A stretch of DNA of 64,000 nt from Streptomyces griseochromogenes (GTDB lineage Bacteria > Actinomycetota > Actinomycetes > Streptomycetales > Streptomycetaceae). Made by a program: the position numbers and the translations under genes. Below, one piece after another: positions 18,372 through 40,071 of this stretch. The notes under the pieces were generated by a model. The model made no database searches. It was not told where the DNA came from and worked only from the letters and a program-made list of their open reading frames with translations. Position 1 is the first letter of the stretch. Every line of letters starts with the position of its first letter. The DNA lies in contig NZ_CP016279.1 of assembly GCF_001542625.1 (NCBI RefSeq), positions 7,936,001 through 8,000,000 on the forward strand, written 5' to 3'.

Positions 18372-21102
<2,731 letters not shown>

Positions 21103-21130
21103 GGGTTTCTCCTCACGCTGCGTTCACTGA

Positions 21131-21167
21131 CATGCATGAGTATGCAGAACTCTGCATGATTCGTCAA
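21131..21167 (-). promoter_or_regulatory. argG promoter with overlapping ARG box
   Basis: On the minus strand TTGACG (21167-21162), a 17-nt spacer and CATACT (21144-21139) form a good vegetative promoter. The spacer and -10 region contain the palindrome-rich sequence ATCATGCAGAGTTCTGCATA and then CTCATGCATG, matching the tandem ARG-box style of Streptomyces ArgR sites. ArgR bound here would block RNA polymerase. Confidence 0.75.
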
Positions 21168-21269
21168 TCGCCCTCCGGTCGGGACGGAGATTCCGCGGTG
21201 TCGGGTCCAGACCTACAGGTCCGACATTTCCTTAGACGGGCGAACGGCTTTCGTCGATAATCGTTAGAC

Positions 21270-21857
21270 ATGGGAAAGATCTATGAGCGCATAGACGGCA
21301 GGCTCCGGACGTTCATCGAGGAGCAGCCCCTCTTCTTCACCGCGACCGCGCCGCTCTCCGGCGACGGTACGGTCAACCTCTCCCCCAAGGGCCTCAAGGG
21401 CTCCTTCGCCGTGCTCGACGAACTCACCGTGGCGTACCTCGACTTCGCCGGGTCCAACGCCGAGACCATCGCGCACCTGCGGGAGAACGGGCGGATCACC
21501 CTCATGTGGTGCGCCTTCCAGGGGCCGCCGAACATCGTGCGGGTGCACGGCCGGGGCGAGCCGGTCTTCCGGGACGACCCGCGCTTCAGGGAGCTGCTCT
21601 CCCACTTCCCGGACATCGACCCGAGCCCGCACGGCCTGCGCGCGATCATCGTGGTCCACACCGAACTGGTGCGGGACACCTGCGGCTACGCGGTCCCCTA
21701 CATGGCCTACGAGGAGGACCGCGACCTGCACGGCAAGCGCTTCGCGCGCGAGGACGACACCTCGCTGAGCACGTACTTCACGAAGAAGGAGCATGTCGCG
21801 GCGAGCCTGGATGGACTACCCGGGCTGCCGTTGCCGCTGCCGCCCTCTAGCTTCTGA
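21270..21857 (+). CDS. Pyridoxamine 5'-phosphate oxidase-like FMN-binding split-barrel protein
   Basis: The 195-residue protein belongs to the PPOx-like split-barrel group that binds FMN or F420. The N-terminal half (FFTATAPLSGDGTVNLSPKG) is typical of this group. The C-terminus ends in a proline/leucine-rich tail (LPGLPLPLPPSSF). The role is unknown; such proteins often reduce small molecules or handle flavin. It diverges from argG and precedes the L,D-transpeptidase by three bases, so the two may share a transcript. Confidence 0.78.
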   Translation: MGKIYERIDGRLRTFIEEQPLFFTATAPLSGDGTVNLSPKGLKGSFAVLDELTVAYLDFAGSNAETIAHLRENGRITLMWCAFQGPPNIVRVHGRGEPVFRDDPRFRELLSHFPDIDPSPHGLRAIIVVHTELVRDTCGYAVPYMAYEEDRDLHGKRFAREDDTSLSTYFTKKEHVAASLDGLPGLPLPLPPSSF

Positions 21858-21860
21858 GTC

Positions 21861-22562
21861 ATGCGCCCCGTTGTCGCCCTCGCCCTCGTGTCCGCGTCCG
21901 TCTGCCTGCTCGGTGCCGCGCCCGGTCGCGAGCCCGACCCGTTGCCCGCGCGGATGGCGGACACCGGGGGCGGTACCCAGCTGATCACCGCCGAGGCCCC
22001 GGCCACCGACGCGACGTCGGGGACTCTCACCTGGTGGGACCTGCGGGACGGGCAGTGGGTCGAGGCCGGCTCCGCACCGGCGCGGTTCGGGGCGAACGGG
22101 CTGGTGGAGGGGGGTACGCGCAAGCAGGGGACGAACACGACGCCGACCGGGCTGTACGACCTTCCGTTCGGGTTCGGGATCAAGGCGGCGCCCAGCGGGA
22201 CGCGCGTCGAGTACCGGACGGTGAAAGAGAGTTCCTGGTGGTGCGAGGACAACAACTCCTCGGCGTACAACCGGTGGGTGGACCCGCTGCCCGCCGACTG
22301 CCGTGCCACCGAGTCCGAGCAGATGTTCTCCTACACGGATCAGTATGCGTACGGGCTCGTCATCGGGTTCAACTACGAACGGCCGGTGCACGGGCACGGA
22401 GCCGGGATCTTCCTGCACGTCAACGGGAAGGCGGCCACGGCCGGTTGTGTGTCGGTACCGGAGGACGCGATGCGCGCCGTCCTCGCGTGGGCCGACCCGG
22501 CGGCCAAGCCGCACATCGCGATCGGAACGGCGAGCGGAGCGACGGCGACGACGCGCTACTGA
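21861..22562 (+). CDS. Secreted L,D-transpeptidase (YkuD fold)
   Basis: The 233-residue protein has an N-terminal signal peptide (hydrophobic VVALALVSASVCLLGAA). The catalytic region HVNGKAATAGCVSV matches the HX(n)[S/T]xGC motif with the nucleophilic cysteine. L,D-transpeptidases make 3-3 cross-links in peptidoglycan or attach proteins to it, which would place the enzyme in the cell wall. The sequence is compact, with no LysM or Ig-like domain. The start is ATG 21861, right after the PPOx gene. Confidence 0.82.
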   Translation: MRPVVALALVSASVCLLGAAPGREPDPLPARMADTGGGTQLITAEAPATDATSGTLTWWDLRDGQWVEAGSAPARFGANGLVEGGTRKQGTNTTPTGLYDLPFGFGIKAAPSGTRVEYRTVKESSWWCEDNNSSAYNRWVDPLPADCRATESEQMFSYTDQYAYGLVIGFNYERPVHGHGAGIFLHVNGKAATAGCVSVPEDAMRAVLAWADPAAKPHIAIGTASGATATTRY

Positions 22563-22577: not shown

Positions 22578-23235
22578 GTGGCCGCCAGGTGGGAGCCGGC
22601 GCTCTCCGACGCCGAGAACGAGCTGGGACGGTGGACGGATCGCCTCCGCCTGGCGTTCCGCCGGCGCTACGACGGGTCCTGCGAGGCGGGTTGCGTCGTG
22701 CGGATTGGGTCTCCGAGACCTGTCGTATGTACAACGGCTGCGGGCGGACCGGAAGAAGCCGGCCCACGCGGCCGAAGTCCGGGCCGGGCCGAGGGCAGCG
22801 CCCTTCTCGACCGGGCACAAGACGACATCGAAGAGGAGTGGACCGACCCCCCGCGGTGGAAGGCCCTTACGGCCGAGGATCTCGCGGCCTACGCCCTGTC
22901 CCAGCGGGTGAGCGCACTGTCCGCGTACCAACTCCTCGCACCCTTGCGGGAACTGGGCGCTCTCATCCCCGAACTCACCCCCTCCGAAGTGACCCGCCTC
23001 CCCTCCGGGATCCCGGACGCCCGGGACCTCGTCGCCCTCAATGCCGAGCACCGCGTCTCCGCCCCGGGGGCCGGTGGGCGCGGCGCACATACGGTTCGCG
23101 GCGCATGCCGTCGACGCGGACGAGGAGTGGGTGCGGGAGCGGCTCGCGTTGTACGCGGAGTTCTTCCGGCTGGAACCGTCCGGAACGGTGACGACCGTCC
23201 CGGCGGCTACCGGGCGGCCGGCAGCCGGACCGTGA
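22578..23235 (+). pseudogene. Frame-disrupted hypothetical gene
   Basis: Protein-like coding sequence runs across three frame changes. Frame A from GTG 22578 encodes a stretch ending DGSCEAGC. Around 22695 the plausible reading moves to the frame giving LRDLSYVQRLRADRKKPAH. Around 22785 it returns to frame A (LLDRAQDDIEEEWTDPPRW, then LSAYQLLAPLRELG). Near the G/C run at 23070-23085 it moves to the frame giving IRFAAHAVDADEEWVRERL and stops at 23235. The acidic, helical composition looks like one soluble protein of about 215 residues. It is either a decayed gene or one hit by indel errors in GC homopolymers. Function unknown. Its end overlaps the histidine kinase gene by 29 bp. Confidence 0.55.
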
Positions 23236-24676
23236 ACGTCGTCGACCCGGGCTCGCTCCGCAGGCCCACGCTCCCCCCGTGCGCCTCCACCACGCCCGCC
23301 ACGATCGACAGCCCCAGCCCGGCACCGCCGCCGGAGGCGTCCGCCCGGCGGCGGTGTTCCGCCCGGGTGAAGCGTTCGAAGGCGCCCGGCTGGACGTCCT
23401 CGGGGATGCCGGGACCGTCGTCGTGGACCAAAAGGCGGGCCGAACCGTCCTCGGTCGCCAGGGTCACCGTCACCTTGGTGCCGACGGGCGTGTGCAAACG
23501 CGCGTTCGCCAACAGGTTGGCCAACACCTGTTGGAGGCGGTGGGCGTCGCCCGGGACCGTCACCGGGTCCTCGGGCAGGTCGAGGGTCCAGCCGTGCTCG
23601 GGGCCCGCGGCACGGGCGTCGGTGACCGCGTCCAGGACCAGGTGCGTCAGGTCGACCGGCCGGCTCTCCAGCGGGCGGCCCGCGTCGAGCCGGGCCAGCA
23701 GGAGCAGGTCGTCGACCATCTCGCCCATGCGGGAGGACTCGGCGGCGATGCGCTCCAGGGCGCGGTTCACCTCCGGCGGCACCGGGCCGGGGTGGAGCAG
23801 GGCCAGTTCCGCGTGTCCGCGGACCGAGGCGACCGGGGTGCGCAGCTCGTGGCTGGCGTCGGCGGCGAAGCGGCGCAGCCGCTCCTCACTGGCGTGGCGC
23901 TTGGTCAGGGCGTCCTCGACATGGCCCAGCATGCGGTTGAAGGCCGCCGCCACCCGGCCGACCTCGCTGCGGGCGTCGGGTTCCGGGGCGCGGGGCGGCA
24001 GGGCCACCTCGCCGCTGGCCAGGGGGAGCTCGCTGACCCGGGTGGCGGTGGCCGCGACCCTGCTGAGCGGCCGTAGCGACCAGCGGACCCAGAAGGCCCC
24101 CGCCACGCCGGTCACCACCAGGGCCAGGCCGAAGACGACGGCGGCCACCAGTTCGAGGCGGCGGACGGTCGCCTGCACGGGCTCCAGCGGGAGGCCGACG
24201 ATCAGGACGTCCCCGTCCCGGCCCGGGGAGGCGACGACCCGGTAGTCGTCCAGGGCGGAGAGGCCGATGGTGTGGGGCCTGCCGTCGGCCCGCACACCGG
24301 CCAGCCGCTTGCGGTCCGCGGCGGACAGGTCGACGTTCAGCTCCGCGGACGGGTCGCCGGAGCGGATGAGGCCCTTGTTGGTGACGGCGCCGTTCAGCAG
24401 GCGGGCGCCGAAGGTGCCGGTGGCCAGGCGGCGGGTGTCGCCGTGTTCGTCGCCGTCGTGATCGTCGGGCACCGACCCGTTGTGCTCCAGGCTCTCCGGG
24501 AACCGGGTGCCGACCTGGACGAGCTGTTCGTCGAGGCGCTGGGTGAGGAAGCCGTTCAGTTCGACGACCGCGGCGAGTCCCACGGCCGCGCAGCTCACCG
24601 CGAGCAGGACCACCAGGCCGAAGGTGAGGCGGGCGCGCAGCGTGCGGGGCCGGGGCAGGCGTCGTACGGGACTCAC
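23207..24676 (-). CDS. Two-component sensor histidine kinase
   Basis: The 489-residue membrane kinase has a first helix at about residues 18-40, an extracytoplasmic sensor region to about 165, a second helix, a HAMP domain, a HisKA domain with the phosphorylated His in ASHELRTP, and an HATPase domain (VLANLLANARLHTP, HDDGPGIPE). The sensor loop holds the acidic/His patch DDHDGDEHGD at residues 71-80, which could bind a metal. Its ATG overlaps the response-regulator stop as ATGA. The pair diverges from the flavocytochrome operon and probably controls it. Confidence 0.93.
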   Translation of the reverse strand: MSPVRRLPRPRTLRARLTFGLVVLLAVSCAAVGLAAVVELNGFLTQRLDEQLVQVGTRFPESLEHNGSVPDDHDGDEHGDTRRLATGTFGARLLNGAVTNKGLIRSGDPSAELNVDLSAADRKRLAGVRADGRPHTIGLSALDDYRVVASPGRDGDVLIVGLPLEPVQATVRRLELVAAVVFGLALVVTGVAGAFWVRWSLRPLSRVAATATRVSELPLASGEVALPPRAPEPDARSEVGRVAAAFNRMLGHVEDALTKRHASEERLRRFAADASHELRTPVASVRGHAELALLHPGPVPPEVNRALERIAAESSRMGEMVDDLLLLARLDAGRPLESRPVDLTHLVLDAVTDARAAGPEHGWTLDLPEDPVTVPGDAHRLQQVLANLLANARLHTPVGTKVTVTLATEDGSARLLVHDDGPGIPEDVQPGAFERFTRAEHRRRADASGGGAGLGLSIVAGVVEAHGGSVGLRSEPGSTTFTVRLPAAR

Positions 24677-25413
24677 CTGGACACCGGCTTCAGGACGTAG
24701 CCCGCGCCGCGCACCGTGTGGATCATGGGTTCGCGGCCCGCGTCCACCTTCTTGCGCAGGTAGGAGATGTACAGCTCGACCACATGGGCCCGGCCGCCGA
24801 AGTCGTAGGACCAGACCCGGTCGAGGATCTGGGCCTTGCTGAGGACGCGGCGCGGGTTGCGCATGAGGAAGCGGAGGAGTTCGAACTCGGTCGGTGAGAG
24901 TTCGATCAGCTCGCCGGCCCGGGTCACCTCGCGGGCCTCCTCGTCCATGACCAGGTCGCCCACGGTCAGCCGCGGCCCCTCCTCCTGCTGCCGGGCCATG
25001 CCCGCGCGACGCAGCAGTCCGCGCAGCCGGGCGACGACCTCCTCCAGGCTGAAGGGCTTGGTGACATAGTCGTCGCCGCCCGCCGTGATGCCGGCGATGC
25101 GGTCCTCGACCGCGTCACGGGCCGTGAGGAAGAGCACACACACGTCCGGCTTCACCTCGTGCAGCCGGCGCAGCACCGCGAAGCCGTCGGTGTCCGGGAG
25201 CATCACGTCCAGGACGACGGCGTCGGGCAGCAGCTCACGCGCGGCCGAGAGCGCGGAGGCGCCGTCGCCGGCCGCGCGCACCTCCCAGCCCTCGTAGCGC
25301 AGGGCGCCGGTGAGCACCTCCGCGAGGTCGGGGTCGTCGTCCACGACGAGGACGCGCAGCGGAGTGCCGTCGGGGCGGGTGACGGCGGGGCGGCCGGAGC
25401 GGGTGGTGTTCAT
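24673..25413 (-). CDS. OmpR-family response regulator
   Basis: The 246-residue protein has a receiver domain (VLVVDDDPDLAEVL, phospho-acceptor Asp in VLDVMLPDTDG, switch Thr in FLTARD, Lys in YVTKPF) and a winged-helix DNA-binding domain (SPTEFELLRFLM to VRGAGYVLKP). ATG 25413 is the working start; an ATG 18 nt upstream is also possible. The two 9-bp direct repeats with an 11-bp period at 25462-25481, between this gene and the divergent operon, are a candidate binding site. Confidence 0.93.
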   Translation of the reverse strand: MNTTRSGRPAVTRPDGTPLRVLVVDDDPDLAEVLTGALRYEGWEVRAAGDGASALSAARELLPDAVVLDVMLPDTDGFAVLRRLHEVKPDVCVLFLTARDAVEDRIAGITAGGDDYVTKPFSLEEVVARLRGLLRRAGMARQQEEGPRLTVGDLVMDEEAREVTRAGELIELSPTEFELLRFLMRNPRRVLSKAQILDRVWSYDFGGRAHVVELYISYLRKKVDAGREPMIHTVRGAGYVLKPVSR

Positions 25414-25461
25414 CGCATCTACCAGCATCGCTCGTGCCGCGGGTGGCGGGCCGCCCGGGCA

Positions 25462-25567: not shown

Positions 25568-26914
25568 ATGACCACCGTGGACTCGAGCCCGGCGGCCCCG
25601 CCTCGGCCCGCACGGCGCTCCCCCGCCGGCCTGGTGCTCGCAGTGCTGTGGGCGGGGGCGGCGGCCGTGGTCGCGCTCTGGTGGGCGGACACGGGGTCCG
25701 TGGTCGCCGCGGCGGGCTGGCTGACCGGGGCCGGGCGCATCGCCGGACTGCTGTGCGGGTACGCCTGCGCGGTGCTGGTCGGCCTGATGGCGCGGGTGCC
25801 GCTGCTGGAGGCGCGGATCGGATCGGACCGGGTGGCGCGCTGGCACGCGATGGCCGGCCGGTACACGGTCTGCCTGCTGCTCGCGCACATCGTGCTGATC
25901 CTGGCCGGGTACGCCGCCCAGGACCGGGTCTCGCCGTGGCACGAGGCGGTCACCGTCGTCCTGGACTACCCGGAGATGCTCAAGGCGACCGCCGGCACGC
26001 TGCTCCTGCTCGCGGTCGGTGTCACCTCGGCGCGGGCCGTGCGCCGCCGGACCAGCTACGAGTTCTGGTACTACGTCCACCTCTTCACGTACGCGGCCGT
26101 CTTCCTGGCCTTCGGGCACCAGGTGGCCCTCGGCGACCAGTTCAGCGGCGATCCGGCGGCCACCGCCGTGTGGTACGCGCTGTACCTGGGCGTGGCCGCC
26201 CTGGTGGTGTGGTTCCGGATCCTCGTGCCGGTCCGGCTGAACCTGCGGCACCGGCTGCGTGTGGAGTCGGTGCACCCGGAGGCGCCGGGCGTGTACTCGG
26301 TCGTCGTACGCGGGCTGCGCCTGGACGAACTGGGCGCGCGGCCGGGGCAGTTCTTGCGCTGGCGGTTCCTCGGCGAGGGCATGGGCTGGACGTCGACGCC
26401 GTACTCCCTGTCGGCGCCGCCGCGCCCGGACCTGCTGCGGATCACCGTCAAGGCGCTCGGCGACCACAGCGCGGCCGTCGCGCTGCTGCGGCCGGGCACC
26501 CGGGTGTGGGCGGAGGGACCGTACGGCTCCCTGACCGCCGACCGGGCCGGCGGCCACCGGTCCCTGCTGATCGCGGCCGGCGTCGGCATCACCCCGCTGC
26601 GCGCGCTGTTCGAGACGCTGCCCGGCGAGGTCACCCTGCTCTACCGGGCGCGCGGCGCGGAGCACCTGGCGCTGGGCGGCGAGCTGGAGGCGATCGCCGG
26701 ATGGCGGGGCGCGCGGGTGCTGTACGCGCTCGACGGGCCGCGCGGGGAGCGGCCGGGCATCACGGCACAGTCGCTGCGCGCGACGTTCCCGGGGCTCGCG
26801 GGCCACGACGTGTACCTCTGCGGCCCGCACGGCTTCGCCCAGGACGTGTACGGGGCGCTGCGGGCGGCCGGGGTGCCGGACCGTCGTATCCACCACGAGT
26901 CGTTCGAGCTGTGA
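25568..26914 (+). CDS. Ferric-reductase-like transmembrane flavocytochrome (copy 1)
   Basis: The 448-residue protein combines a six-helix ferric-reductase-type heme domain with a cytoplasmic ferredoxin-reductase domain. His93/His107 and His171/His184 are spaced to ligate two stacked b hemes. The FAD site is TSTPYSLS and the NAD(P)H site is AAGVGITPLRALF, ending CGPHGF and the aromatic/acidic tail ESFEL. It should move electrons from cytosolic NAD(P)H across the membrane. The likely acceptors are the FMN-binding proteins encoded next, the first of which overlaps or abuts its stop. AAGGGACGG precedes ATG 25568. Confidence 0.9.
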   Translation: MTTVDSSPAAPPRPARRSPAGLVLAVLWAGAAAVVALWWADTGSVVAAAGWLTGAGRIAGLLCGYACAVLVGLMARVPLLEARIGSDRVARWHAMAGRYTVCLLLAHIVLILAGYAAQDRVSPWHEAVTVVLDYPEMLKATAGTLLLLAVGVTSARAVRRRTSYEFWYYVHLFTYAAVFLAFGHQVALGDQFSGDPAATAVWYALYLGVAALVVWFRILVPVRLNLRHRLRVESVHPEAPGVYSVVVRGLRLDELGARPGQFLRWRFLGEGMGWTSTPYSLSAPPRPDLLRITVKALGDHSAAVALLRPGTRVWAEGPYGSLTADRAGGHRSLLIAAGVGITPLRALFETLPGEVTLLYRARGAEHLALGGELEAIAGWRGARVLYALDGPRGERPGITAQSLRATFPGLAGHDVYLCGPHGFAQDVYGALRAAGVPDRRIHHESFEL

Positions 26915-26922
26915 GGCTTTCT

Positions 26923-27372
26923 GTGCACGCGTTGAAGAAGAATCGTCCCCTCCGCCGCATCGTGCTGGCGAGTGCCGCCACCGTCTCGGGGATGGTGCTG
27001 CTGCTGTCGCTGAAGCCGCACACGAATTCCGTGGTGGCGGCGAGCGCCGAGTCGCACGCGCCGTCGAGCGGTTCGAGCACGGCACCGGGCACCGGCACGA
27101 GGACCGTCACCGGCGACACCGTCCAGACGCGGTGGGGACCGGTCCGGGTGCGGGTCACGATCGAGGGCGGAAGGCTCACCGACGTCACCGCGCTCAGCTA
27201 CCCGCAGGACAACCCGCGCGACCAGGAGATCAGCGGCTACGCCCTCCCCCAGCTGCGGAGCGAGGCGCTGGCCGCCCAGAGCGCGCGGATCGACACGGTC
27301 TCCGGAGCCACGTACACCAGTGGCGGCTACCGCCGGTCGCTGCAGTCCGCGCTGGACTCCGCGGGCCTCTGA
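26923..27372 (+). CDS. Membrane-anchored FMN-binding protein, single domain
   Basis: The 149-residue protein has a twin-arginine-containing N-terminal helix (LRRIVLASAATVSGMVLLLSL), a Ser/Thr-rich linker and one FMN-binding domain. The DTVSGAT motif ends at Thr130, the residue expected to carry FMN through a phosphoester bond made by ApbE. The domain lies outside the membrane. GTG 26923 is chosen because GAGG precedes it by six bases; a GTG at 26911 overlaps the upstream stop as GTGA. It probably accepts electrons from the flavocytochrome before it. Confidence 0.87.
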   Translation: MHALKKNRPLRRIVLASAATVSGMVLLLSLKPHTNSVVAASAESHAPSSGSSTAPGTGTRTVTGDTVQTRWGPVRVRVTIEGGRLTDVTALSYPQDNPRDQEISGYALPQLRSEALAAQSARIDTVSGATYTSGGYRRSLQSALDSAGL

Positions 27373-27431
27373 ACACTCAGCGCATGCGCCACGTATCTCT
27401 GGGCCAAGGGTCAAGTCCCCACGGAGGAACC

Positions 27432-28814
27432 GTGACCACCACGCTCGCAGGCGGACGTGCCGCCCGCCGCCAGACGATGCGCCGCATCCGCCCGCGCCGC
27501 TCCCCGGCCGTACCGCTGCTGCTCGCGGTCTGGGCGGGCGCGGTGGCCGTGCTGTGGCTCTGGTGGCACAACACCCCGTCCATCGCCGACGACAACGGCA
27601 AGATCCTCAACGCGGGCCGGATCACCGGTCTGCTGGCCGGCTACCTGATGGCGCTGGTCGTGCTCCAGATGGCGCGCGTACCGGCGCTGGAACGCCGCGT
27701 CGGCTCCGACCGGGTGGCTCGCTGGCACGCGATGAGCGGCCGTTACACGCTCTGTCTGGTCCTGGCGCACGTCTTCCTCACCATGTGGGGGTACGCGCTG
27801 CAGGCCGGCAAGTCGCTCGGCGACATCGTGCAGCAGACCATCGACTCCATCAACCAGCTGCCGGACATGGGCAAGGCCGCCATCGGCATGGCCCTGTTCC
27901 TGCTCATCGGCCTGACGTCGATCGGCCCGGTCCGCCGCCGGCTGCCGTACGACACCTGGTACCACGTCCACCTGCTCACGTACGCGGCGGTGTTCCTGAC
28001 GTTCTGGCACCAGATCACCACCGGCAACGACTTCGCGGTCGAGCCCACCGCCAAGACCTTCTGGTACGTGCTGTACGGGTCGGTCACCGCGCTGGTGCTC
28101 TGGTACCGGATCCTCACCCCGATCCGGCTGAACCTCCGTCACCGCATGCGGGTGGAAGCGGTGATCGAGGAGACGCCGGGCATCGTGTCGGTGCTGATCG
28201 GCGGGCGGAAGCTGCACCGGATGGGCGCGGAGGCGGGGCAGTTCTTCCGCTGGCGGTTCCTCGCCCCGGGAATGCGGTTCAGCTCGCACCCGTACTCGCT
28301 GTCGGCGGCGCCCCGCCCCGACATGCTGCGGATCACGGTGAAGGCGATCGGCGACCACAGCGAGCGGCTGCGCGAGCTGACGCCCGGCACCCGGGTGTGG
28401 GCGGAGGGCCCGTACGGCGCGCTGACCGCGCAGCGGCGCAGCGCGGGGAAGGTGCTGCTGGTCGCGGGCGGGGTCGGCATCACGCCGATGCGGGCGCTGT
28501 TCGAGACGCTGCCCGGGGCGGCCGGTGACATCACCCTGCTGTACCGGGCCAACACCACCCAGGACCTGGCGCTGTGGGACGAGCTGGCCGCGATCGCCAA
28601 GGAGCGGGGCGCCCGGCTGATGTACGCGGTCAACAGCCCCGAGGGCGAGCGTCCGGACATCTCCGCGGAGAACCTCCAGCGGAAGATCCCGGACATCGAT
28701 CGCCACGATGTGTTCATGTGCGGCCCGCCCGGGTTCGCGCAGTCGGTGTTCGAGGCACTGCGCGACGCGGGAGTCCCCGCGCGGCGTATCCACCACGAGT
28801 CGTTCGAGATGTGA
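27432..28814 (+). CDS. Ferric-reductase-like transmembrane flavocytochrome (copy 2)
   Basis: The 460-residue paralog of the gene at 25568 has the same architecture. Heme-ligand candidates are His99/His113 and His180/His193, with FAD motif SSHPYSLS, NAD(P)H motif AGGVGITPMRALF, CGPPGF and an ESFEM tail. An extra His178 gives HVH. GTG 27432 has a strong GGAGG upstream. Two flavocytochrome/FMN-protein pairs in tandem suggest an old duplication of the unit, perhaps with different acceptors. Confidence 0.9.
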   Translation: MTTTLAGGRAARRQTMRRIRPRRSPAVPLLLAVWAGAVAVLWLWWHNTPSIADDNGKILNAGRITGLLAGYLMALVVLQMARVPALERRVGSDRVARWHAMSGRYTLCLVLAHVFLTMWGYALQAGKSLGDIVQQTIDSINQLPDMGKAAIGMALFLLIGLTSIGPVRRRLPYDTWYHVHLLTYAAVFLTFWHQITTGNDFAVEPTAKTFWYVLYGSVTALVLWYRILTPIRLNLRHRMRVEAVIEETPGIVSVLIGGRKLHRMGAEAGQFFRWRFLAPGMRFSSHPYSLSAAPRPDMLRITVKAIGDHSERLRELTPGTRVWAEGPYGALTAQRRSAGKVLLVAGGVGITPMRALFETLPGAAGDITLLYRANTTQDLALWDELAAIAKERGARLMYAVNSPEGERPDISAENLQRKIPDIDRHDVFMCGPPGFAQSVFEALRDAGVPARRIHHESFEM

Positions 28815-28831
28815 GCGGGAGCTGCGAAGCG

Positions 28832-29641
28832 ATGAGGAAGAGCCACCCCATTCGGCGCGTCGTGCTGGCCACCGCCGCCACCGTGTCCGGTGTCGTGCTG
28901 CTGCTGTCGCTGAAGCCCGCGTCGGATCCGGCCGCGGCCTCGGCGGCGGGCGCGGCCCCGCAGCAGACCGCGGCGGGGCAGGAGTCGCCGCAGGGCGGTC
29001 AGCAGGGCGGTGGGCAGTCCGCCGGGACGGTGACCGGTGACGCGGCCCAGACCCAGTACGGGACCGTACAGGTACGGCTGACCGTCGCGAACGGGAAGAT
29101 CACCAAGGCGGAGGCGGTGCAGGCGCCCAAGGGCGGCCTCAGCGACCAGAAGACCGCCCTCTCCGTGCCCAAGCTCAACCAGGAGGCCGTCACGGCGCAG
29201 AGTGCGCAGATCGACGCGGTCTCCGGGGCGACGTACACGAGCACGGGGTACAAGAAGTCGCTGCAGTCGGCGCTGGACAAGGTGAAGGCGTCGTCGGCCG
29301 CGTCCGGCGGTTCGTCCTCCGGTTCCGGTTCGTCCTCGGGCGCCGGTTCCTCGTCCGGGTCGGCCCAGGCCCGTACCGTCACCGGCAAGGCCGTCCAGAC
29401 CCAGTACGGCACGGTCCAGGTCCGGATCACGGTCAGCGACGGGAAGATCACCAAGGCGGACGCGGTGCAGGCGCCCAAGGGCGGCCTCAGCGACCAGAAG
29501 ACCGCCCTCTCCGTGCCCAAGCTCAACCAGGAGGCGGTGGCGGCCGGGAACGCGAACATCGACGCGGTCTCCGGGGCCACCTACACCAGCACCGGCTACA
29601 AGCAGTCGCTGCAGTCGGCGCTGGACCAGGCCGGTGGCTGA
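28832..29641 (+). CDS. Membrane-anchored FMN-binding protein with two tandem FMN domains
   Basis: This 269-residue protein has the same RR-containing N-terminal helix as the single-domain paralog, a Gln/Gly-rich linker, and two FMN-binding domains 116 residues apart. Each has DAVSGATYTSTGY, giving predicted covalent FMN at Thr134 and Thr250. A Ser/Gly-rich linker joins the domains. A 74-bp stretch is identical in both (29114-29187 and 29462-29535), so the duplication is young or kept alike by gene conversion. Two flavins in a row would extend electron transfer into the wall space. It overlaps apbE by eight bases. Confidence 0.9.
   Translation: MRKSHPIRRVVLATAATVSGVVLLLSLKPASDPAAASAAGAAPQQTAAGQESPQGGQQGGGQSAGTVTGDAAQTQYGTVQVRLTVANGKITKAEAVQAPKGGLSDQKTALSVPKLNQEAVTAQSAQIDAVSGATYTSTGYKKSLQSALDKVKASSAASGGSSSGSGSSSGAGSSSGSAQARTVTGKAVQTQYGTVQVRITVSDGKITKADAVQAPKGGLSDQKTALSVPKLNQEAVAAGNANIDAVSGATYTSTGYKQSLQSALDQAGG
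29114..29187 (+). repeat. 74-bp exact direct repeat, copy 1 (in FMN domain 1)
   Basis: This stretch, starting GCGGTGCAGGCGCCCAAGGG, is identical base for base to 29462-29535, 348 bp (116 codons) downstream in the same frame. Synonymous sites are identical too, pointing to recent duplication or conversion. Confidence 0.9.
29462..29535 (+). repeat. 74-bp exact direct repeat, copy 2 (in FMN domain 2)
   Basis: This is the second copy of the 29114-29187 repeat. Recombination between the copies would delete one complete FMN domain and leave a single-domain protein in frame. Confidence 0.9.
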
Positions 29642-30437
29642 CACGGTGACCGAGCCGGCGAAGGCTCCCGCCGCGGTGCGTCATGCGGAGGAGGTCATGG
29701 GGACCGTCTTCTCCTTCGACGTCCGCGGCGGGGAACGCGATGCGGTACGGCAGGCCCTTCAGGAGGCGGTCGCGGGCCTGCACCGGGCCGACGCGCTCTT
29801 CTCCACGTACCGCGAGGACAGCGAGGTGTCCCGGCTGGCCCGGGGCGAGCTGACCGTGGAGCGGTGCGCTCCCGAGATGGCCGAGGTGCTGGACCTGGCG
29901 GCCGAGGCCGAGCGGGCGAGCGGGGGATGGTTCAGCACCCGGTACCGGGGCTCGCTGGACCCGACCGGCATCGTGAAGGGCTGGTCCGCCGAGCGGGCCG
30001 CGCTGCAGCTGGCCGCCGTGGAGGGGGTGTGCGGCGTCAGCGTGAACGGCGGTGGTGACGTCCAGATGCTGGGCGCGCCGGAGCCGCAGCGGCCGTGGCG
30101 GGTGGGGGTGGCCGATCCGCTGCGCCCGGGCGGTCTTGCGGCGGTGATCTCGGCGGCCGGGGTGGACGAGCTGTCGGTGGCCACCTCGGGTACGGCCGAG
30201 CGCGGGGCGCACATCGTGGATCCCCGTACGGGCCGGCCGGCGGTGACGGACCTGGTGGCGGTGACGGTGGTGGGGCCGCGGCTGACCTGGGTGGACTGCT
30301 GGGCCACGGCGGCGTTCGCGATGGGGTCGCGGGCGGGGCTGGACTGGCTGGAGTCGCTGCCGGACGTCGAGGGGCTGCTGATCACCGCGGGCGACGAGGT
30401 GCGGTGCACCGGGGGCCTGGCCGCGCGACTGGGCTGA
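29634..30437 (+). CDS. apbE: FAD:protein FMN transferase (ApbE family)
   Basis: The 267-residue enzyme covalently attaches FMN from FAD to Thr in [S/T]GAT motifs. Family marks are the start EEVMGTVFSF, FSTYREDSEVSRL, LDPTGIVKGW, the flavin-site NGGGDV, and ATSGTAERGAHIVDP with downstream WVDCWATAAFAMG. The targets are clearly the two FMN-binding proteins encoded upstream. It is shorter than typical exported ApbE and shows no signal peptide or lipobox, so it may act in the cytoplasm. GTG 29634 overlaps the previous gene; GTG 29646 is an alternative start. Confidence 0.93.
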   Translation: MADTVTEPAKAPAAVRHAEEVMGTVFSFDVRGGERDAVRQALQEAVAGLHRADALFSTYREDSEVSRLARGELTVERCAPEMAEVLDLAAEAERASGGWFSTRYRGSLDPTGIVKGWSAERAALQLAAVEGVCGVSVNGGGDVQMLGAPEPQRPWRVGVADPLRPGGLAAVISAAGVDELSVATSGTAERGAHIVDPRTGRPAVTDLVAVTVVGPRLTWVDCWATAAFAMGSRAGLDWLESLPDVEGLLITAGDEVRCTGGLAARLG

Positions 30438-30542: not shown

Positions 30543-30737
30543 ATGGCCATCTTCAGCAGTCTCATGCCCGCCATGCGCCGGGACCATGGTGACCGCTCGT
30601 CGGAGCACGACCACGGTCACGACCATGACCACGGCCACGACCACGGTCACGACCACGGCGGCCACGGGGGCCACGGAGGTCACGGTGACCATGGCGGCCA
30701 CGGCGGCCACGGCGGCCACGGTCACGGCGGCTACTGA
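30543..30737 (+). CDS. 64-residue His/Gly/Asp-rich peptide
   Basis: The small gene has an excellent ribosome binding site (AAGGAGG seven bases before ATG). The first 13 residues (MAIFSSLMPAMRR) are ordinary, then 18 histidines alternate with Gly and Asp as HDHGHDHG-like and HGGHGG-like units up to a terminal GGY. Such a tail should bind Ni, Zn, Cu or Fe. It lies between apbE and an ABC exporter, and a hairpin (30763-30782) separates it from the exporter as if to keep peptide mRNA in excess. No family is recognised. It could be an exported metal-binding peptide, a cytosolic metal store or a modified precursor. Confidence 0.75.
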   Translation: MAIFSSLMPAMRRDHGDRSSEHDHGHDHDHGHDHGHDHGGHGGHGGHGDHGGHGGHGGHGHGGY

Positions 30738-30811: not shown

Positions 30812-32647
30812 ATGGCGCATGTCCTGCGTCGTCTGCTGTCGGTGGGCGAGACCTCCGACGCCGTGGTCGCGCCCGCGCCCGCTGTGGCCCCCAGCGCGGT
30901 GTTCCGGCGGTTCTGGCCGTACACCCGCGGCGCCCGACGCTGGCTGGCGCCGGTCGTCTTCTTCAGCGTGGCCGGCCCGGTCGTGGACGCCACGGAGATC
31001 TGGCTGTTCAAGATCGTCGTGGACGATGTGCTCGTCCCGCGGGACCTCAGGCCGTTTCTGTGGATCGCCCCGGCCTATCTGGGGCTCGTTCTGTGCTCCG
31101 GCGTTCTGGGGTTCGCCGACGACGTGACGTCCACCTGGGTGAGCGAACGCTTCCTGCTCTCCTTGCGCGCCGATGTGTTCCGGCACGTCCAGGGGCTCTC
31201 ACTCGGCTTCTTCGAACGCCGGCGGCTCGGGGACGTGCTCTCCCGGGTCACGGGCGATGTCGACGCGGTCGAGACGTTCCTGCTCTCCGGCGTGGCCGAC
31301 GCGCTCTACTACGTGATCCGGCTGAGCCTCTTCCTCGGCCTGCTGTTCTACCTGCGGTGGGACCTCACCCTGCTCGCCCTCGCCATCGTGCCGCTGTTCT
31401 GGGGCACCGGCCGGCACTTCTCACGACTGATCAAGGAGGCGTCGCGGGAGCGCAGGCGGCTCAGCGGCTCGATCAGCGCGATCGCCGAGGAGTCACTGGG
31501 CAACGTCGCCCTCGTGCAGGCGTACAACCGGCAGGGGTGGGAGGAGCGCCGGTTCGAGCGGGAGAGCGCCGGCCGCTTCCGGGCCGCGATGGCCTCGGCG
31601 CGGATCCGTGCCGTCTACGGACCCGTCGTCGAGATCATCGAGGTGACCGGCGGCCTCGCGGTCATGGGTCTCGGCACCTGGAAGGTGGCCCAGGGACAGC
31701 TCACCCTCGGCGGGCTGCTGGTCTTCGTCGCGCTGATCGGCGAGATGTACGGCCCGGTCCGCGGCCTGTCCCGGCTCGGCACCACCTTCTACGCGGCGTC
31801 CGCCTCGGCCGAGCGGATCATCGAGTTGCTGGACCAGCGGCCACAGGTGGCCGAGGCCCCGCATGCCCGGCGGATCGGCCGGACGCGGGGTGAGGTGGAG
31901 TTCGACGGCGTCTGGTTCCGCTATCCCGGCACCGCCGGCCGGGCGCTGTCGGACGTGTCCTTCCATGTGGCACCCGGCGAGACGGTGGCGCTGGTCGGGG
32001 CCAGCGGGGCCGGCAAGTCGACGGTGGCCAAACTCCAGCTGCGCTTCTACGACCCCGACCGGGGAGCGGTCCGCCTCGACGGGGCCGATCTGCGCTCCCT
32101 GCGCCTGCCTGACGTACGGGAGAACGTCGCGGTGGTGCTGCAGGAGACGCTCGTCTTCCACGGCACCGTGCGGGAGAACATCGCCTACGGCCGGCCGGAG
32201 GCGAGTGAGGCGGACATCGTGGCGGCGGCGCGCGCCGCGGACGCGCACGAGTTCATCGCCTCGCTCCCGGACGGCTACGACACCCTGGTCGGCCAGCGCG
32301 GCCGGACCCTGTCCGGCGGGCAGGGCCAGCGCCTGGCGATCGCCCGCGCGATGATCAGGGACGCGCCGGTGCTGCTGCTCGACGAGCCGACCACCGGGCT
32401 GGACGTCCGGTCGGGCCTGCGGATCATGGACCCGCTGCGCCGGCTCATGGCCGGGCGGACGACCGTCGTCATCTCGCACAACCTGCTGACCGTGCGCGAC
32501 GCCACCCGGATCGTGGTGCTCGATCACGGCCGGGTCGTCGAGCAGGGCACCCACGGCGATCTGCTCGACCGCGACGGGACCTATGCCCGGCTCCACCGAC
32601 TGCACGGCACGGCCGGATCCACGACCCCGGGGACGGTGCCGTCGTGA
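30812..32647 (+). CDS. ABC exporter (fused transmembrane and ATPase domains)
   Basis: The 611-residue type IV ABC exporter half-transporter has six membrane helices in residues about 40-330. The ATPase domain has Walker A GASGAGKST (from residue 396), signature LSGGQ (500-504), Walker B VLLLDEP (Asp524) and H-loop VISHN. There is no N-terminal C39 peptidase domain. It most resembles MsbA/lipid-peptide exporters. The gene between a His-rich peptide and a kinase suggests the peptide, or something it binds, as cargo; this is inference. Its stop overlaps the kinase start as GTGA. Confidence 0.88.
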   Translation: MAHVLRRLLSVGETSDAVVAPAPAVAPSAVFRRFWPYTRGARRWLAPVVFFSVAGPVVDATEIWLFKIVVDDVLVPRDLRPFLWIAPAYLGLVLCSGVLGFADDVTSTWVSERFLLSLRADVFRHVQGLSLGFFERRRLGDVLSRVTGDVDAVETFLLSGVADALYYVIRLSLFLGLLFYLRWDLTLLALAIVPLFWGTGRHFSRLIKEASRERRRLSGSISAIAEESLGNVALVQAYNRQGWEERRFERESAGRFRAAMASARIRAVYGPVVEIIEVTGGLAVMGLGTWKVAQGQLTLGGLLVFVALIGEMYGPVRGLSRLGTTFYAASASAERIIELLDQRPQVAEAPHARRIGRTRGEVEFDGVWFRYPGTAGRALSDVSFHVAPGETVALVGASGAGKSTVAKLQLRFYDPDRGAVRLDGADLRSLRLPDVRENVAVVLQETLVFHGTVRENIAYGRPEASEADIVAAARAADAHEFIASLPDGYDTLVGQRGRTLSGGQGQRLAIARAMIRDAPVLLLDEPTTGLDVRSGLRIMDPLRRLMAGRTTVVISHNLLTVRDATRIVVLDHGRVVEQGTHGDLLDRDGTYARLHRLHGTAGSTTPGTVPS

Positions 32648-33570
32648 GTGCCTCCGCTGCCCGGTCGGCCCCGCCGCTGGCACCGGGCAGCAGACCGGTC
32701 CCGGGCTACGAGGTGCTGGCGCATCTGACGCGCACCGGCTGGCTCGACGTCTACGACGCCTGGAGCGAGGAACGCGCCTGCCGTTGTGCGATCAAGACGG
32801 TGCGTCCCGACCGCCGGGGCGAGCGGCGCCTCGGCGAGCGGCTGCTGCGCGAGGGCCGGTGGCTGCGCGACTTCACCCATCCCCATCTGGTCCGTGCCTA
32901 CGAGACCGTCGAGTCGCCCGAGCCGCTCGTCGTCCTGGAGACCCTGACCGGTGAGACGCTCTCCCACCTCCTGGACCGGTTGCGGCGCCGGCCGGCCGCC
33001 GCCGACGTGGCGCTGCTCGGGACGCAGCTGTGTTCCGCGGTGCACTACCTCCACCGTCAGGGCCTGCTGCACCTGGATCTGAAGCCGTCCAACGTGGTGG
33101 TGGACTGCGGTCATGCGAAGGTGCTGGACCTGAGCGTGGCGCGGCCGCCCGGGCCCGCGCCCGCGGGAGTGGGCACCCGCTGCTACCTCGCTCCGGAGCA
33201 GGCCCGCGGCGGGCCGCTCACGGCCGCGGCCGACGTGTGGGGCATCGGCATCACCTTGTTCGAGGCGGCCTGCGGTGACCGGCCGTTCGACCGGGGCGGG
33301 ACCGGGGACGAGGAGCCCCGCGACGGGGAGCCCCGCGACGGGGAGAGGGCGGGCGAGGGCGGTTCCGGTGGCCCGGCCGGCCGGTATCCGCAGCTGGAGC
33401 GCAGCGCCCCGGCCGTCGGGTCCCGGCGGCGCCTGCCGCCCGCGCTCGCGGCCGCCGTCGACCGCTGCCTGCGGACCGACCCGTCGTCGCGGCCCACGGT
33501 CGCCGGACTGGCCGCCGCCCTGGCGGAGGCGCTGCCCGGCCCGCCGCGTCCCGCCTCCTCCCGGGTCTGA
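32644..33570 (+). CDS. Ser/Thr protein kinase-like protein with degenerate motifs
   Basis: The 308-residue protein is a single soluble kinase domain with no membrane helix or PASTA repeat. The VAIK lysine is Lys51 (CAIKTV). The catalytic loop is HLDLKPSN (Asp145, Lys147, Asn150), with Leu replacing the usual Arg of HRD. The DFG motif is DLS (Asp162), and the glycine loop is poor (LTRTGWLDVY). Catalytic Asp and Lys are kept, so weak or atypical activity is possible. An acidic linker with a repeated EPRDG unit (about residues 220-240) interrupts the C-lobe. It is coupled to the ABC exporter by GTGA. Confidence 0.85.
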   Translation: MSASAARSAPPLAPGSRPVPGYEVLAHLTRTGWLDVYDAWSEERACRCAIKTVRPDRRGERRLGERLLREGRWLRDFTHPHLVRAYETVESPEPLVVLETLTGETLSHLLDRLRRRPAAADVALLGTQLCSAVHYLHRQGLLHLDLKPSNVVVDCGHAKVLDLSVARPPGPAPAGVGTRCYLAPEQARGGPLTAAADVWGIGITLFEAACGDRPFDRGGTGDEEPRDGEPRDGERAGEGGSGGPAGRYPQLERSAPAVGSRRRLPPALAAAVDRCLRTDPSSRPTVAGLAAALAEALPGPPRPASSRV

Positions 33571-35057: not shown

Positions 35058-35603
35058 TCAGTGCCCGTTCTGCGCCAGCCGCAGCAGATGGTCCGCCAGC
35101 GCCTGTCCCCCGGTCGGCTCCCGGCTGATCAGCAGCAGGGTGTCGTCACCGGCGATGGTCCCCAGGATGTCGTGCAGTTCGGCCTGGTCGATGGCCGAGG
35201 CGAGGAACTGGGCGGCACCCGGCGGGGTGCGCAGGACCACGAGGTTGGCGGAGGCCTCCGCGGAGATCAGCAGCTCCTGGGACAGGCGCCGCATCCGCTC
35301 CTCCTTCGCCGACTCGCCGAGCGGCGCGCGGGGCGTGCGGAAACCGCCCTCGCTCGGCACCGCGTAGATCAGGTCGCCGTCGTTGTTGCGGATCTTCACC
35401 GCGTTCAGCTCGTCGAGATCCCGGGACAGCGTCGCCTGGGTGACGTTCAGCCCGTCGTCGGCGAGCAGCTTCGCCAGCTGGCTCTGCGACCGCACCGGCT
35501 GCCGGTTGAGGATGTCCACGATCCGGCGGTGCCGTGCGGTGCGGGTCTGCGGTACGGCGGCCCCTGCGCCCGCCGCCTGCTCGTGGTCCTGCGCCTGGCT
35601 CAT
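35058..35603 (-). CDS. argR: Arginine repressor
   Basis: The 181-residue ArgR has a winged-helix N-terminus ([33 protein letters not shown], with the SR core that contacts ARG boxes) and a C-terminal hexamerisation/arginine-binding domain ([12 protein letters not shown]). It is the last gene of argCJBDR and starts eight bases after the argD stop. It should repress the operon and argGH when arginine is plentiful; ARG-box promoters are visible upstream of argC and argG. Confidence 0.95.
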
Positions 35604-35610
35604 CGTCGTC

Positions 35611-36828
35611 TCATTCTCCGGATCGTCCGACCCCATCCACTGGGTTCGCTGCCTGGAGGATGCCGGGCAGCGCCTGGAGGAAGGCGCCTGCCTCGTCGTC
35701 GCGGAGGTTGAGCGGCGGCATGAGCCGTACGACGTCGGGAGCGGGCGCGTTCACCAGGAACCCGGCCTCCTGGGCCGCCTGCTGCACACGGGGTGCGTGC
35801 GGCCCGGTGAGCACGATACCGAGCAGAAGGCCCGCGCCCCGGACATAGTCGATCAACGGGTGGTTCAGGGCCTGGATTCCGTCCCGCAGCAGCTCGCTCT
35901 GCCGCTTGACGTTCTCCAGCAGTCCGTCGTCCGTGATGGTGTCGAGGACGGCGAGTCCGGCCGCGCAGGCGACCGGGTTGCCGCCGAAGGTCGTGCCGTG
36001 CTGGCCGGGCCGGAGCAGTTCGGCGGCCCGGCCGAAGGCCACGGTGGCGCCGAGCGGCAGCCCGCCGCCGAGTCCCTTGGCGAGCGTGACGACATCGGGC
36101 AGGACGCCTTCGTGGGCCTGGTACTCGAACCAGTTCCCGGTGCGGCCGATGCCGGTCTGCACCTCGTCCAGCACCAGCAGGGCCCCCGTGGCGGCGGTGA
36201 TCGCCCGGGCCGCCTTGAGGTAGTCGGCCGGGGGCACCACGACGCCGTTCTCGCCCTGGACCGGCTCGATGACGACGAGAGCCGTCTCCTCGGTCACGGC
36301 CCGTGCCAGCGCCTGCGCGTCGCCGTACGGGACGTGGGTGACGTCGCCGGGCAGCGGCTGGAAGGGCGCCTGCTTGCCCGGCTGGCCGGTGAGCGCGAGG
36401 GCGCCCATGGTGCGGCCGTGGAATCCGCCCTGGGTGGCGACCATGTGGGTGCGGCCGGTCAGCCGGCCGATCTTGAACGCGCCCTCGTTGGCCTCGGCGC
36501 CGGAGTTGCAGAAGAAGACCTTGCCGTCGCGGCCGAAGAGCTGCAGCAGCCGTTCGGCGAGGGCGACGGGCGGCTCGGCGATGAACAGGTTGGAGACATG
36601 GCCGAGGGAGGCGATCTGCTTGCTGACGGCCTCGACGACGGCCGGGTGGGCGTGGCCGAGGGCGTTGACCGCGATACCGCCGACGAAGTCGAGGTACTCC
36701 TTGCCGTCGGCGTCCCACAGCCGGGCGCCGGCACCGCGCACGAGGGGCAGCCGCGGGGTGCCGTAGTTGTTCATGAGCGCGCCCTGCCAGCGCGTGGTCA
36801 GCTCTGCGTTGGTCGCGGTACCCGTCAT
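35611..36828 (-). CDS. argD: Acetylornithine aminotransferase
   Basis: The 405-residue class III PLP aminotransferase converts N-acetylglutamate semialdehyde to N-acetylornithine. Marks are [38 protein letters not shown] and the Schiff-base lysine in TLAKGLGGG. Its ATG overlaps the argB stop as ATGA. The length and gene order are normal for Streptomyces argCJBDR. Confidence 0.96.
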
Positions 36829-37751
36829 GACTGCTCCCCCTCGGCTTCGTCGGGCACGACCATGGTGCCGATGCCCTCGTCGGTGAAGATCTCCAGCAGG
36901 ATCGAGTGCTGCACCCGGCCGTCGATGACGCGGGCGGTGCGCACCCCGTTGCGTACGGCGTGCAGGCAGCCCCGCATCTTCGGCACCATGCCCGCGGACA
37001 GGTCCGGCAGCAGCTTCTCCAGCTGGGACGCGGTGAGGCGGCTGATCACCTCGTCGGAGTTCGGCCAGTCCTCGTAGAGGCCCTCGACGTCGGTGAGGAC
37101 CATGAGGGTCTCGGCCCCCAGTGCCGCAGCGAGTGCCGCAGCCGCCGTATCAGCATTGACGTTGTAGACTTGGCCCCCTTTGTCGAAGGCGTCCTGACTG
37201 CGGGCGATCGAGGAGACGACCGGAATACGGCCGTCGGCGAGCAGGCTCTCGATCACGCCCGTGTCGATCTCGGTGATCTCGCCGACCCGCCCGATGTCGA
37301 CCGGCTCGCCGTCGATCTCGGGCTGGTGCTTGGTGGCGGTGATGGTGTGGGCGTCCTCGCCCGTCAGGCCCACGGCGAGTGGTCCGTGCTGGTTGAGCAG
37401 GCCGACCAGCTCGCGCTGCACCTGCCCGGCGAGCACCATGCGTACGACGTCCATGGCGTCCTCGGTGGTGACGCGCAGGCCCGCCTTGAACTCGCTGACG
37501 ATGCCGTGTCTGTCGAGGGCGGCGCTGATCTGCGGGCCGCCGCCGTGGACGACGACCGGCTTGAGGCCGGCGTGCCGCAGGAAGACGACGTCCTGGGCGA
37601 AGGCGGCCTTCAGCTCCTCGTTCACCATGGCGTTGCCGCCGAACTTGATGACGACGGTCTTGCCGTGGTGCCGGGTCAGCCAGGGCAGCGCCTCGGTGAG
37701 GGTCTGGGCCTTCGGCAGGGCCGTGTGCTTGCGCGTGGTTCCGGTGCTCAT
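36825..37751 (-). CDS. argB: Acetylglutamate kinase
   Basis: The 308-residue amino-acid kinase phosphorylates N-acetylglutamate, the arginine-inhibited step of the pathway. The nucleotide and substrate sites are [27 protein letters not shown] and GMVPKM. The N-terminal helix of about 20 residues ([12 protein letters not shown]) is the one linked in other organisms to hexamer formation and arginine inhibition. Start and stop overlap argJ and argD by four bases each, giving tight coupling. Confidence 0.96.
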
Positions 37752-38899
37752 GACGAGTAGGCGCTGTTCTCGTGGACGTAGTCGGCGGTGAGGTCGTTGG
37801 TCCAGATGGTGGCGGTCTCGGAGCCGGCCGCGAGGTCGGCGACGATGTGCACCTCGCGGTAGCGCATGTCGACCTTCTCGCGGTCCTCGCCGACGCCGCC
37901 GTTCTTGCACACCCAGACGCCGTTGATGGCGACGCCCAGCCGGTCGGGCTCGAAGACCGCCCGCGTCGTACCGATGGCCGACAGCACCCGGCCCCAGTTG
38001 GGGTCCTCGCCGTGGATCGCGCACTTGAGGAGGTTGTTGCGGGCGATGGAGCGGCCCACCTCGACGGCGTCGTCCTCGGTCGCCGCGTTGATCACCTCGA
38101 CCTTGATGTCCTTGCTGGCGCCTTCGGCGTCGCGGATCAGCTGCTGCCCGAGGTCGGCGCAGACCTGCCGTACGGCCTCGGCGAACTCCTCGTACTCCGG
38201 GGTGACGCCGGCCGCCCCGGAGGCGAGCAGCAGCACCGTGTCGTTGGTGGACATGCAGCCGTCGGAGTCGACGCGGTCGAAGGTGACCTTGGTCGCGGCG
38301 CGCAGGGCCCGGTCCAGCGCCTCGCTGTCGAGGCCGGCGTCGGTGGTGAGCACGACCAGCATGGTGGCGAGGCCCGGGGCGAGCATGCCCGCGCCCTTGG
38401 CCATGCCGCCGACGGTCCAGCCGTCCTTGGTGACGACGGAGGTCTTGTGGACGGTGTCGGTGGTCTTGATGGCGATGGCGGCCTTCTCGCCGCCGTGCTC
38501 GGAGAGCTGGGCCGCGGCCGTCTCGACGCCCGGGAGCAGCTTGTCCATGGGCAGCAGCACGCCGATGAGGCCGGTGGAGCAGACGGCGACCTCGATGGCA
38601 CCGCGGCCGAGCACCTCGGCCGCCTTCTCGGCGGTCGCGTGGGTGTCCTGGAAGCCCTTGGGGCCGGTGCAGGCGTTGGCCCCGCCGGAGTTGAGGACGA
38701 CGGCCGAGACCTGGCCGCTCCTGAGGACCTGCTCGGACCACAGCACCGGTGCGGCCTTCACACGGTTGGACGTGAAGACACCGGCGGCGGCGCGGCGCGG
38801 ACCGTCGTTGACCACGAGGGCCAGGTCCGGGTTGCCGTTCTCCTTGATCCCGGCGGCGATGCCCGCCGCCCTGAATCCCTTGGCTGCCGTCACGCTCAC
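37748..38899 (-). CDS. argJ: Bifunctional glutamate N-acetyltransferase / ornithine acetyltransferase
   Basis: The 383-residue ArgJ recycles the acetyl group from acetylornithine to glutamate, and may also use acetyl-CoA. The autoprocessing site is [10 protein letters not shown]; cleavage before Thr179 makes the alpha and beta chains and frees the nucleophile. STGLIG is the oxyanion region. GTG 38899 is the start. Presence of ArgJ indicates the cyclic arginine pathway. It lies between argC and argB. Confidence 0.95.
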
Positions 38900-38987
38900 G
38901 GTGTCTCCCAGTTCGCTTCTCCGCCCGCGCAGCGCGGCGGTGCGGCCTTCGTCGTCGTCTGCGGCCCGGTGGCTGCACGCGCGTCGC

Positions 38988-40071
<1,084 letters not shown>

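Follow-up and report, generated by a model that had tools for sequence, protein, structure and literature searches.

A putative surface electron-export locus with two flavocytochrome modules and one leaderless ApbE in Streptomyces griseochromogenes

How can flavin be joined to proteins that stand outside the cell membrane when the only transferase found for this task carries no leader? The question is raised by a stretch of 64,000 nucleotides from Streptomyces griseochromogenes (contig NZ_CP016279.1, positions 7,936,001 to 8,000,000; called here the window). In it, a run of five forward-strand genes spanning 25568-30437 codes, in this order, for a flavocytochrome (FC1), a protein carrying flavin mononucleotide (FMN1), a second flavocytochrome (FC2), a second flavin mononucleotide (FMN) protein (FMN2) and ApbE, which moves FMN from flavin adenine dinucleotide (FAD) to proteins (Table 1). 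The genes are separated by 8, 59 and 17 nt in order, and FMN2 and apbE overlap by 8 nt. Our analysis indicates that this is quite probably a self-contained locus for electron export at the cell surface, with two modules in which electrons would pass from reduced nicotinamide adenine dinucleotide (phosphate), NAD(P)H, to FAD, hemes and an anchored FMN protein, one cytoplasmic ApbE and an acceptor outside the cell.

A preliminary description of this DNA had recognized two flavocytochrome/FMN-protein pairs with apbE at the end, and the five genes are indeed arranged in this way. It had also spoken of a dedicated ApbE. When the whole genome (10.76 Mb) was searched at E <= 0.001, the matches to ApbE, FMN_bind and Ferric_reduct were all confined to the locus, with a single one to ApbE, which bears out that claim and makes the system look self-contained.

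Components and putative electron path

Both flavocytochromes contain Ferric_reduct and NAD_binding_1, with PF00175 at the C-terminus, and FAD_binding_8 was scored in FC2 only (Pfam calls above the curated cut-offs, nine window proteins scanned). The four histidines expected to hold two hemes (His99, 113, 180 and 193 in FC2) were invariant in all of the 50 aligned flavocytochromes, two from the window and 48 from the 40 loci described below. As FAD motif, FC2 has HPYSLSA and FC1 has TPYSLSA. The spaced histidines and the FAD and NAD(P)H motifs that had been ascribed to each protein are thus recovered, the latter as these domains and, for FAD, as the motif. A structure model of FC2 (predicted local distance difference test, pLDDT, 85.7) had SpNOX of Streptococcus pneumoniae (PDB 8qt6, 8qta, 8qq7) as its nearest fold and DUOX/NOX as the next. 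FC2 shares with SpNOX the transmembrane and FAD/NAD(P)H domains, at an identity of 18-19%, and the number of long helices in its model is compatible with six. The modelled fold and the four-histidine pattern both agree with an NADPH oxidase.

FMN1 contains one FMN_bind domain and FMN2 two, with the SGAT threonines at Thr130 of FMN1 and at Thr134 and Thr250 of FMN2, exactly the positions given in the preliminary description. The two FMN2 domains are 85% identical to one another, and a sequence search of the PDB with FMN2 gave a single match at E <= 0.001, 8p2a (SaFMN3-D2, E 5e-37). Like SaFMN3 of Streptomyces azureus, FMN2 has an N-terminal anchor, tandem FMN_bind domains and the Dxx[ST]GA[ST]-like motif, and it fits a multi-FMN protein of this type. 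It differs in having two domains instead of three and a flavocytochrome gene directly before it. SaFMN3 carries three FMN bound covalently to threonine, its measured potential is -184 mV, and it is oxidised by O2 once reduced; its natural electron donor is stated to be unknown by its authors (PMC10339131). Among the FMN proteins of the genus, the N-terminal hydrophobic anchor had a mean hydropathy of at least 1.78 in 47 anchors, the N-side flank was the more positive in 45 of 49, and a lipobox was found in none of the 49 leaders. Such an N-side-positive anchor would place the FMN domain outside the membrane.

By its content, the locus belongs to the MsrQ-like class, whose mark is a PF01794 protein encoded within a flavinylation cluster and of which 1797 clusters were counted among 1468 genomes (Meheust 2021, PMC8238504), since its PF01794 proteins are clustered with apbE and FMN_bind. 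The class shares with the window the flavocytochrome, FMN_bind, apbE and the C-terminal NAD-binding domain (PF00175 in 1437 of the 1797 clusters), and NAD(P)H has been proposed as the donor for at least a subset of it. The window differs in having two dissimilar tandem modules on one apbE, together with a two-component system, and a leaderless ApbE, a feature not mentioned in the parts of that report used here. According to that report the class is widely conserved among Actinobacteria. Within the genus, the window ApbE had a match at E <= 0.001 in 181 of 295 genomes. The system is ordinary for actinomycetes. That it would be unusual in an obligate aerobe, as had been proposed, does not hold, because the class is a known actinobacterial one, the relative SaFMN3 is oxidised by O2 and FC2 is predicted to fold like SpNOX.

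From the sequence we infer an electron path, a site of flavinylation, a mode of regulation and a kind of acceptor, and the two modules would operate jointly. In each flavocytochrome, the FAD of the cytosolic domain would be reduced by NAD(P)H, the likely donor. A stack of two b-hemes would then lead the electrons across the membrane to FMN linked by a phosphoester to the three SGAT threonines, all three FMN being transferred by ApbE from FAD. The FMN domains would lie outside the membrane, where a single N-terminal helix with a flexible linker would tether them. The two-component system probably governs at least FC1-FMN1, and the end acceptor is probably a soluble outside oxidant (O2, ferric iron or quinone). 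The route from NAD(P)H through hemes to external FMN had been suggested before, and it stands as the best reading of the domains.

Flavin attachment and the missing leader

The last gene codes for a protein that agrees with a FAD:protein FMN transferase in domain, fold and conserved residues. It scored 149.7 bits in Pfam, the best 39 structural matches of its model (pLDDT 92.5) were all ApbE/Ftp/FmnB, and 27 columns were invariant among 38 aligned ApbE sequences. We take D221/T225 to be its metal site. No signal peptide or lipoprotein leader was found on it: the earliest usual in-frame start lies at 29634, 21 residues ahead of the core MGT, none of them hydrophobic.

The same was found in related loci. 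In 40 loci of the genus, the highest mean hydropathy of 16 residues within 70 residues upstream of the ApbE core was 1.01. In 20 loci of other families it was 0.88, measured from the farthest usual start with shorter extensions unscored, and a scan of the whole open frame gave values up to 0.88 in 19 of these 20 and a peak of 1.73 in the other (L112). By usual starts, ApbE was leaderless in 60 of 60 loci, 59 of them unambiguous, and a flavocytochrome lay upstream of it in 40/40 and 20/20. Of 50 loci compared, four in which the window ApbE found no match (L085, L098, L101, L105) were set aside, and the count omits the other 26 of L076-L105, whose core positions were unclear. Two of these 26 (L094, L097) have a flavocytochrome match and appear leaderless as well.

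Attachment of FMN in the cytoplasm, prior to export, is most likely as judged from these sequences, because ApbE has no leader and no second ApbE was found in the genome. The loaded FMN proteins would perhaps be exported by twin-arginine translocation (Tat). Two TatC are present in the genome, and within the genus, the window included, 45 of the 49 leaders of FMN proteins have RRxPhiPhi (with Ala counted as Phi). Outside the genus, RR appeared in 10/16 leaders and RRxPhiPhi in 9/16 (counted by eye); here four of the 20 loci (L111, L112, L115, L116) gave no FMN protein by pattern and one row (L120, end 4538) was dropped as a wrong-frame match. We extend this reading to actinomycetes only tentatively, judging it a little less probable than its opposite: leaderless ApbE would load FMN inside, and the folded flavinylated domains would be exported, probably by Tat, and remain anchored. 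With FMN loaded inside the cell, no FAD exporter would be needed. The genome had no match to PF07456, which we take to be the family of EetB, a subunit of a FAD exporter (other FAD exporters were not sought).

Published work frames the choice. A cofactor-bearing surface protein may be loaded in the cytosol and exported folded by Tat, or exported unfolded and supplied with cofactor outside, and an extracytosolic ApbE requires extracytosolic FAD (PMC9973259). In Listeria extracellular electron transfer (FmnB/FmnA/EetB/PplA; PMC9973259) electrons likewise move outward through a surface protein that an ApbE-type transferase has flavinylated; there the transferase FmnB works outside the cytosol and depends on FAD being exported, whereas the window ApbE is leaderless and PF07456 unmatched. 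Cytosolic ApbE is named only for non-exported targets in the part of PMC12052999 used here. In the literature covered, which took in PMC11334425 besides the papers named here but did not include supplementary leader-prediction tables, we found no report of a leaderless actinomycete ApbE or of cytoplasmic flavinylation of exported proteins.

Several observations weigh against loading inside followed by Tat export. The twin-arginine pattern is frequent but not invariant among the FMN leaders, and the residue preceding RR is mostly hydrophobic or the initiator, a position at which the Tat consensus differs from them. The N-side of the anchor was not the more positive one in four of the 49 FMN proteins. 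In L112 the hydrophobic in-frame stretch directly precedes the first usual start, which makes its leaderless status uncertain. Besides, the loci are not a random sample, 40 coming from the listed best ApbE matches and 20 from listed matches of shorter score. The variable twin-arginine pattern would suit an ApbE that works outside in spite of being leaderless, released non-classically or hitch-hiking with an exported partner, with FAD from some exporter. In its favour, too, flavinylation of exported targets is described in print with extracytosolic ApbE (PMC12052999, PMC10339131, PMC9973259). We consider this improbable, given that a hydrophobic ApbE N-terminus was reached from a usual start in 0/60 loci (L112 being doubtful) and that the one exporter family searched for gave no match. 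Loading in the cytoplasm is the reading that we keep.

Descent of the two modules and alternative functions

The genus sample comprised 40 loci from 38 genomes, taken among the listed ApbE matches. Eight share the arrangement of the window, FC1-FMN1-FC2-FMN2-ApbE plus a divergent two-component system. Another 25 have a single FC2-type flavocytochrome with an FMN protein and ApbE, and seven a single FC1-type flavocytochrome with its own ApbE. The divergent two-component system accompanies six of these seven and was not found at the seventh (L062). Identity of the window ApbE was 80-91% to the enzymes of these eight joined loci, 70-90% to 16 of the 25 FC2-type loci and 53-60% to the other nine, and 52-56% to the seven FC1-type loci. 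As the identities are higher to the FC2 type, the joined locus seems to have retained the FC2-side ApbE. In a genus-wide survey (295 genomes searched with ApbE, 291 with FC1), FC1 was found at 74% identity or more in 58 genomes, the window's included. In 48 of them it shared a contig with the best ApbE, at a distance of 2.5-3.3 kb; it lay elsewhere in seven, and 0.5 kb ahead of ApbE in one (G077); in two (G242, G139) the contigs were too broken to place it. FC1 and ApbE were on separate contigs in three genomes, of which G264, whose ApbE has 214 kb of contig upstream, was scored as elsewhere.

These comparisons indicate that in the window an FC1 module is joined to a second module under one apbE, with FC1 and FC2 as old paralogues. 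The preliminary description had called the locus duplicated, which holds in that two paralogous modules stand together and fails for a recent tandem copy. Two redundant copies of one pathway, born by tandem duplication, might be thought of, as FC1 and FC2 have fold and motifs in common at 57.6% identity and the anchors of FMN1 and FMN2 are near-identical. In the midpoint-rooted tree, however, FC1 of the joined loci grouped with the FC1-type stand-alone loci and FC2 with the other stand-alones (support 100/99), and one genome (G009) has the two types far apart (L047, L066), each accompanied by a separate ApbE. The separation of the lineages led us to reject a recent copy, and tandem duplication as such appears very improbable. 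Among the relatives (L036-L075), FC2-type FMN proteins have one, two or three FMN domains, consistent with gain and loss between near-identical repeats. In one joined locus (L038, about 7264-7520) the second FMN domain of FMN2, damaged or fused, lacks the SGAT end and is read in frame into apbE; the two genes may truly be fused, or the repeated domain may have collapsed during assembly.

The joined modules could also serve other ends. They might be a device of NADPH oxidase type, with external FMN passing electrons to O2 and the resulting hydrogen peroxide or superoxide used as a signal or to harm competitors. In its reduced form SaFMN3 is readily oxidised by O2, and oxidase roles have been proposed by its authors (PMC10339131). 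The nearest folds of the FC2 model, SpNOX and then DUOX/NOX, point the same way. But the reaction with O2 may be a side reaction, because reduced flavins mostly react with O2, and no catalase or similar gene was seen among the nine Pfam-scanned window proteins, the part of the window that was searched for them; we hold this function possible, though rather unlikely. Slightly less likely again is an assimilatory ferric (or copper) reductase supplying metal uptake. The flavocytochrome domain is named ferric reductase-like in Pfam, a VIT1 iron transporter occurs in 153 of the 1797 published MsrQ-like clusters (PMC8238504), and the sensor kinase resembles the heavy-metal sensor family below its cut-off (194.5 vs 292.55 bits). 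Against it, no iron transporter appeared among the 20 Pfam-scanned representatives of recurring neighbours (five small clusters unscanned; flanks of about 13 kb in all for the 40 loci and about 7 kb in all for the 20). Iron as acceptor, part of the preliminary description, gets no support from the classified neighbouring genes. Export of electrons to an outside acceptor is the wider reading that we retain.

Regulators, neighbouring genes and significance

The divergent two-component system goes with the FC1 half. A homologue of the response regulator, from the same cluster, was found in seven of the 20 other-family loci. In three of them it is upstream and divergent with a kinase match; in four it is downstream on the same strand, followed by a cut-off open reading frame (ORF) without Pfam match, so a kinase there is unproven. 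That the link is kept in differing arrangements argues for function. A candidate metal-sensing motif in the kinase loop (forms of DDHDGDEHGD) was discarded, being present in the window and joined loci and absent from the stand-alone two-component loci. A scan for promoters and terminators turned up neither, with chance expectations of 0.1 and 0.8, and is hence little informative.

Table 1. Positions in the window of the locus genes and surrounding features, with predicted products
Feature	Position	Strand	Predicted product and remarks
FC1	25568-26914	+	448 aa; bis-heme flavocytochrome, cytosolic FAD/NAD(P)H domain; lineage of two-component-linked loci
FMN1	26923-27372	+	149 aa, GTG start; N-terminal anchor, one FMN_bind, SGAT Thr130
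FC2	27432-28814	+	460 aa, GTG start; bis-heme flavocytochrome, predicted NADPH-oxidase-like fold
FMN2	28832-29641	+	269 aa; anchored, two FMN_bind (Thr134, Thr250), SaFMN3 relative (PDB 8p2a)
ApbE	29634-30437	+	267 aa, GTG start; FAD:protein FMN transferase without leader, sole ApbE match in genome
Response regulator	24676-25416	-	Winged-helix output domain; divergent from FC1
Sensor histidine kinase	23210-24676	-	Divergent from FC1
Arginine region, left part	18381-21168		Argininosuccinate synthase, lyase
PNPOx-like gene	21231-21806	+	Upstream of the locus
YkuD gene	21861-22562	+	L,D-transpeptidase; upstream of the locus
63-codon ORF	30543-30734	+	His/Gly/Asp-rich peptide, behind an AGGAGG site
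ABC exporter	30812-32647		After the 63-codon ORF
Ser/Thr kinase	32644-33570		After the exporter
Arginine region, right part	35061-39806		Arginine repressor, class-III aminotransferase, amino acid kinase, ArgJ, semialdehyde dehydrogenase

Around the 60 loci, 31 gene clusters recur in at least three: the 20 whose representatives were scanned, the five small ones and six that are the locus itself, its regulators and the ATP-binding cassette (ABC) exporter. Four loci (L112, L115, L118, L121) gave no genes in the clustering, and the neighbour counts are therefore lower bounds. The locus sits inside a split arginine biosynthesis region; the arginine repressor is a neighbour in at least 27 of the 60 loci and the aminotransferase in at least 20, a setting that looks positional. 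The PNPOx-like and YkuD genes recur in at least 11 and 17. Reading a function from these neighbours was given up, as arginine genes, sigma factor, YkuD, PNPOx-like, TetR and similar genes show no evident redox link. The peptide of the 63-codon ORF and the exporter after it are possibly a metal-binding peptide with its exporter.

What deserves attention here is the joining of modules and, chiefly, the site of flavin attachment. SaFMN3-like surface flavoproteins gain a specific candidate for their electron donor, one that can be deleted. The pairing of a leaderless ApbE with anchored FMN proteins in actinomycete loci points to a gap in the accepted picture and, in a genome with a single ApbE, the flavinylation question can be tested by one deletion. 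If loading inside the cell is true, it would be a second route of maturation alongside the extracytosolic ApbE pathway.

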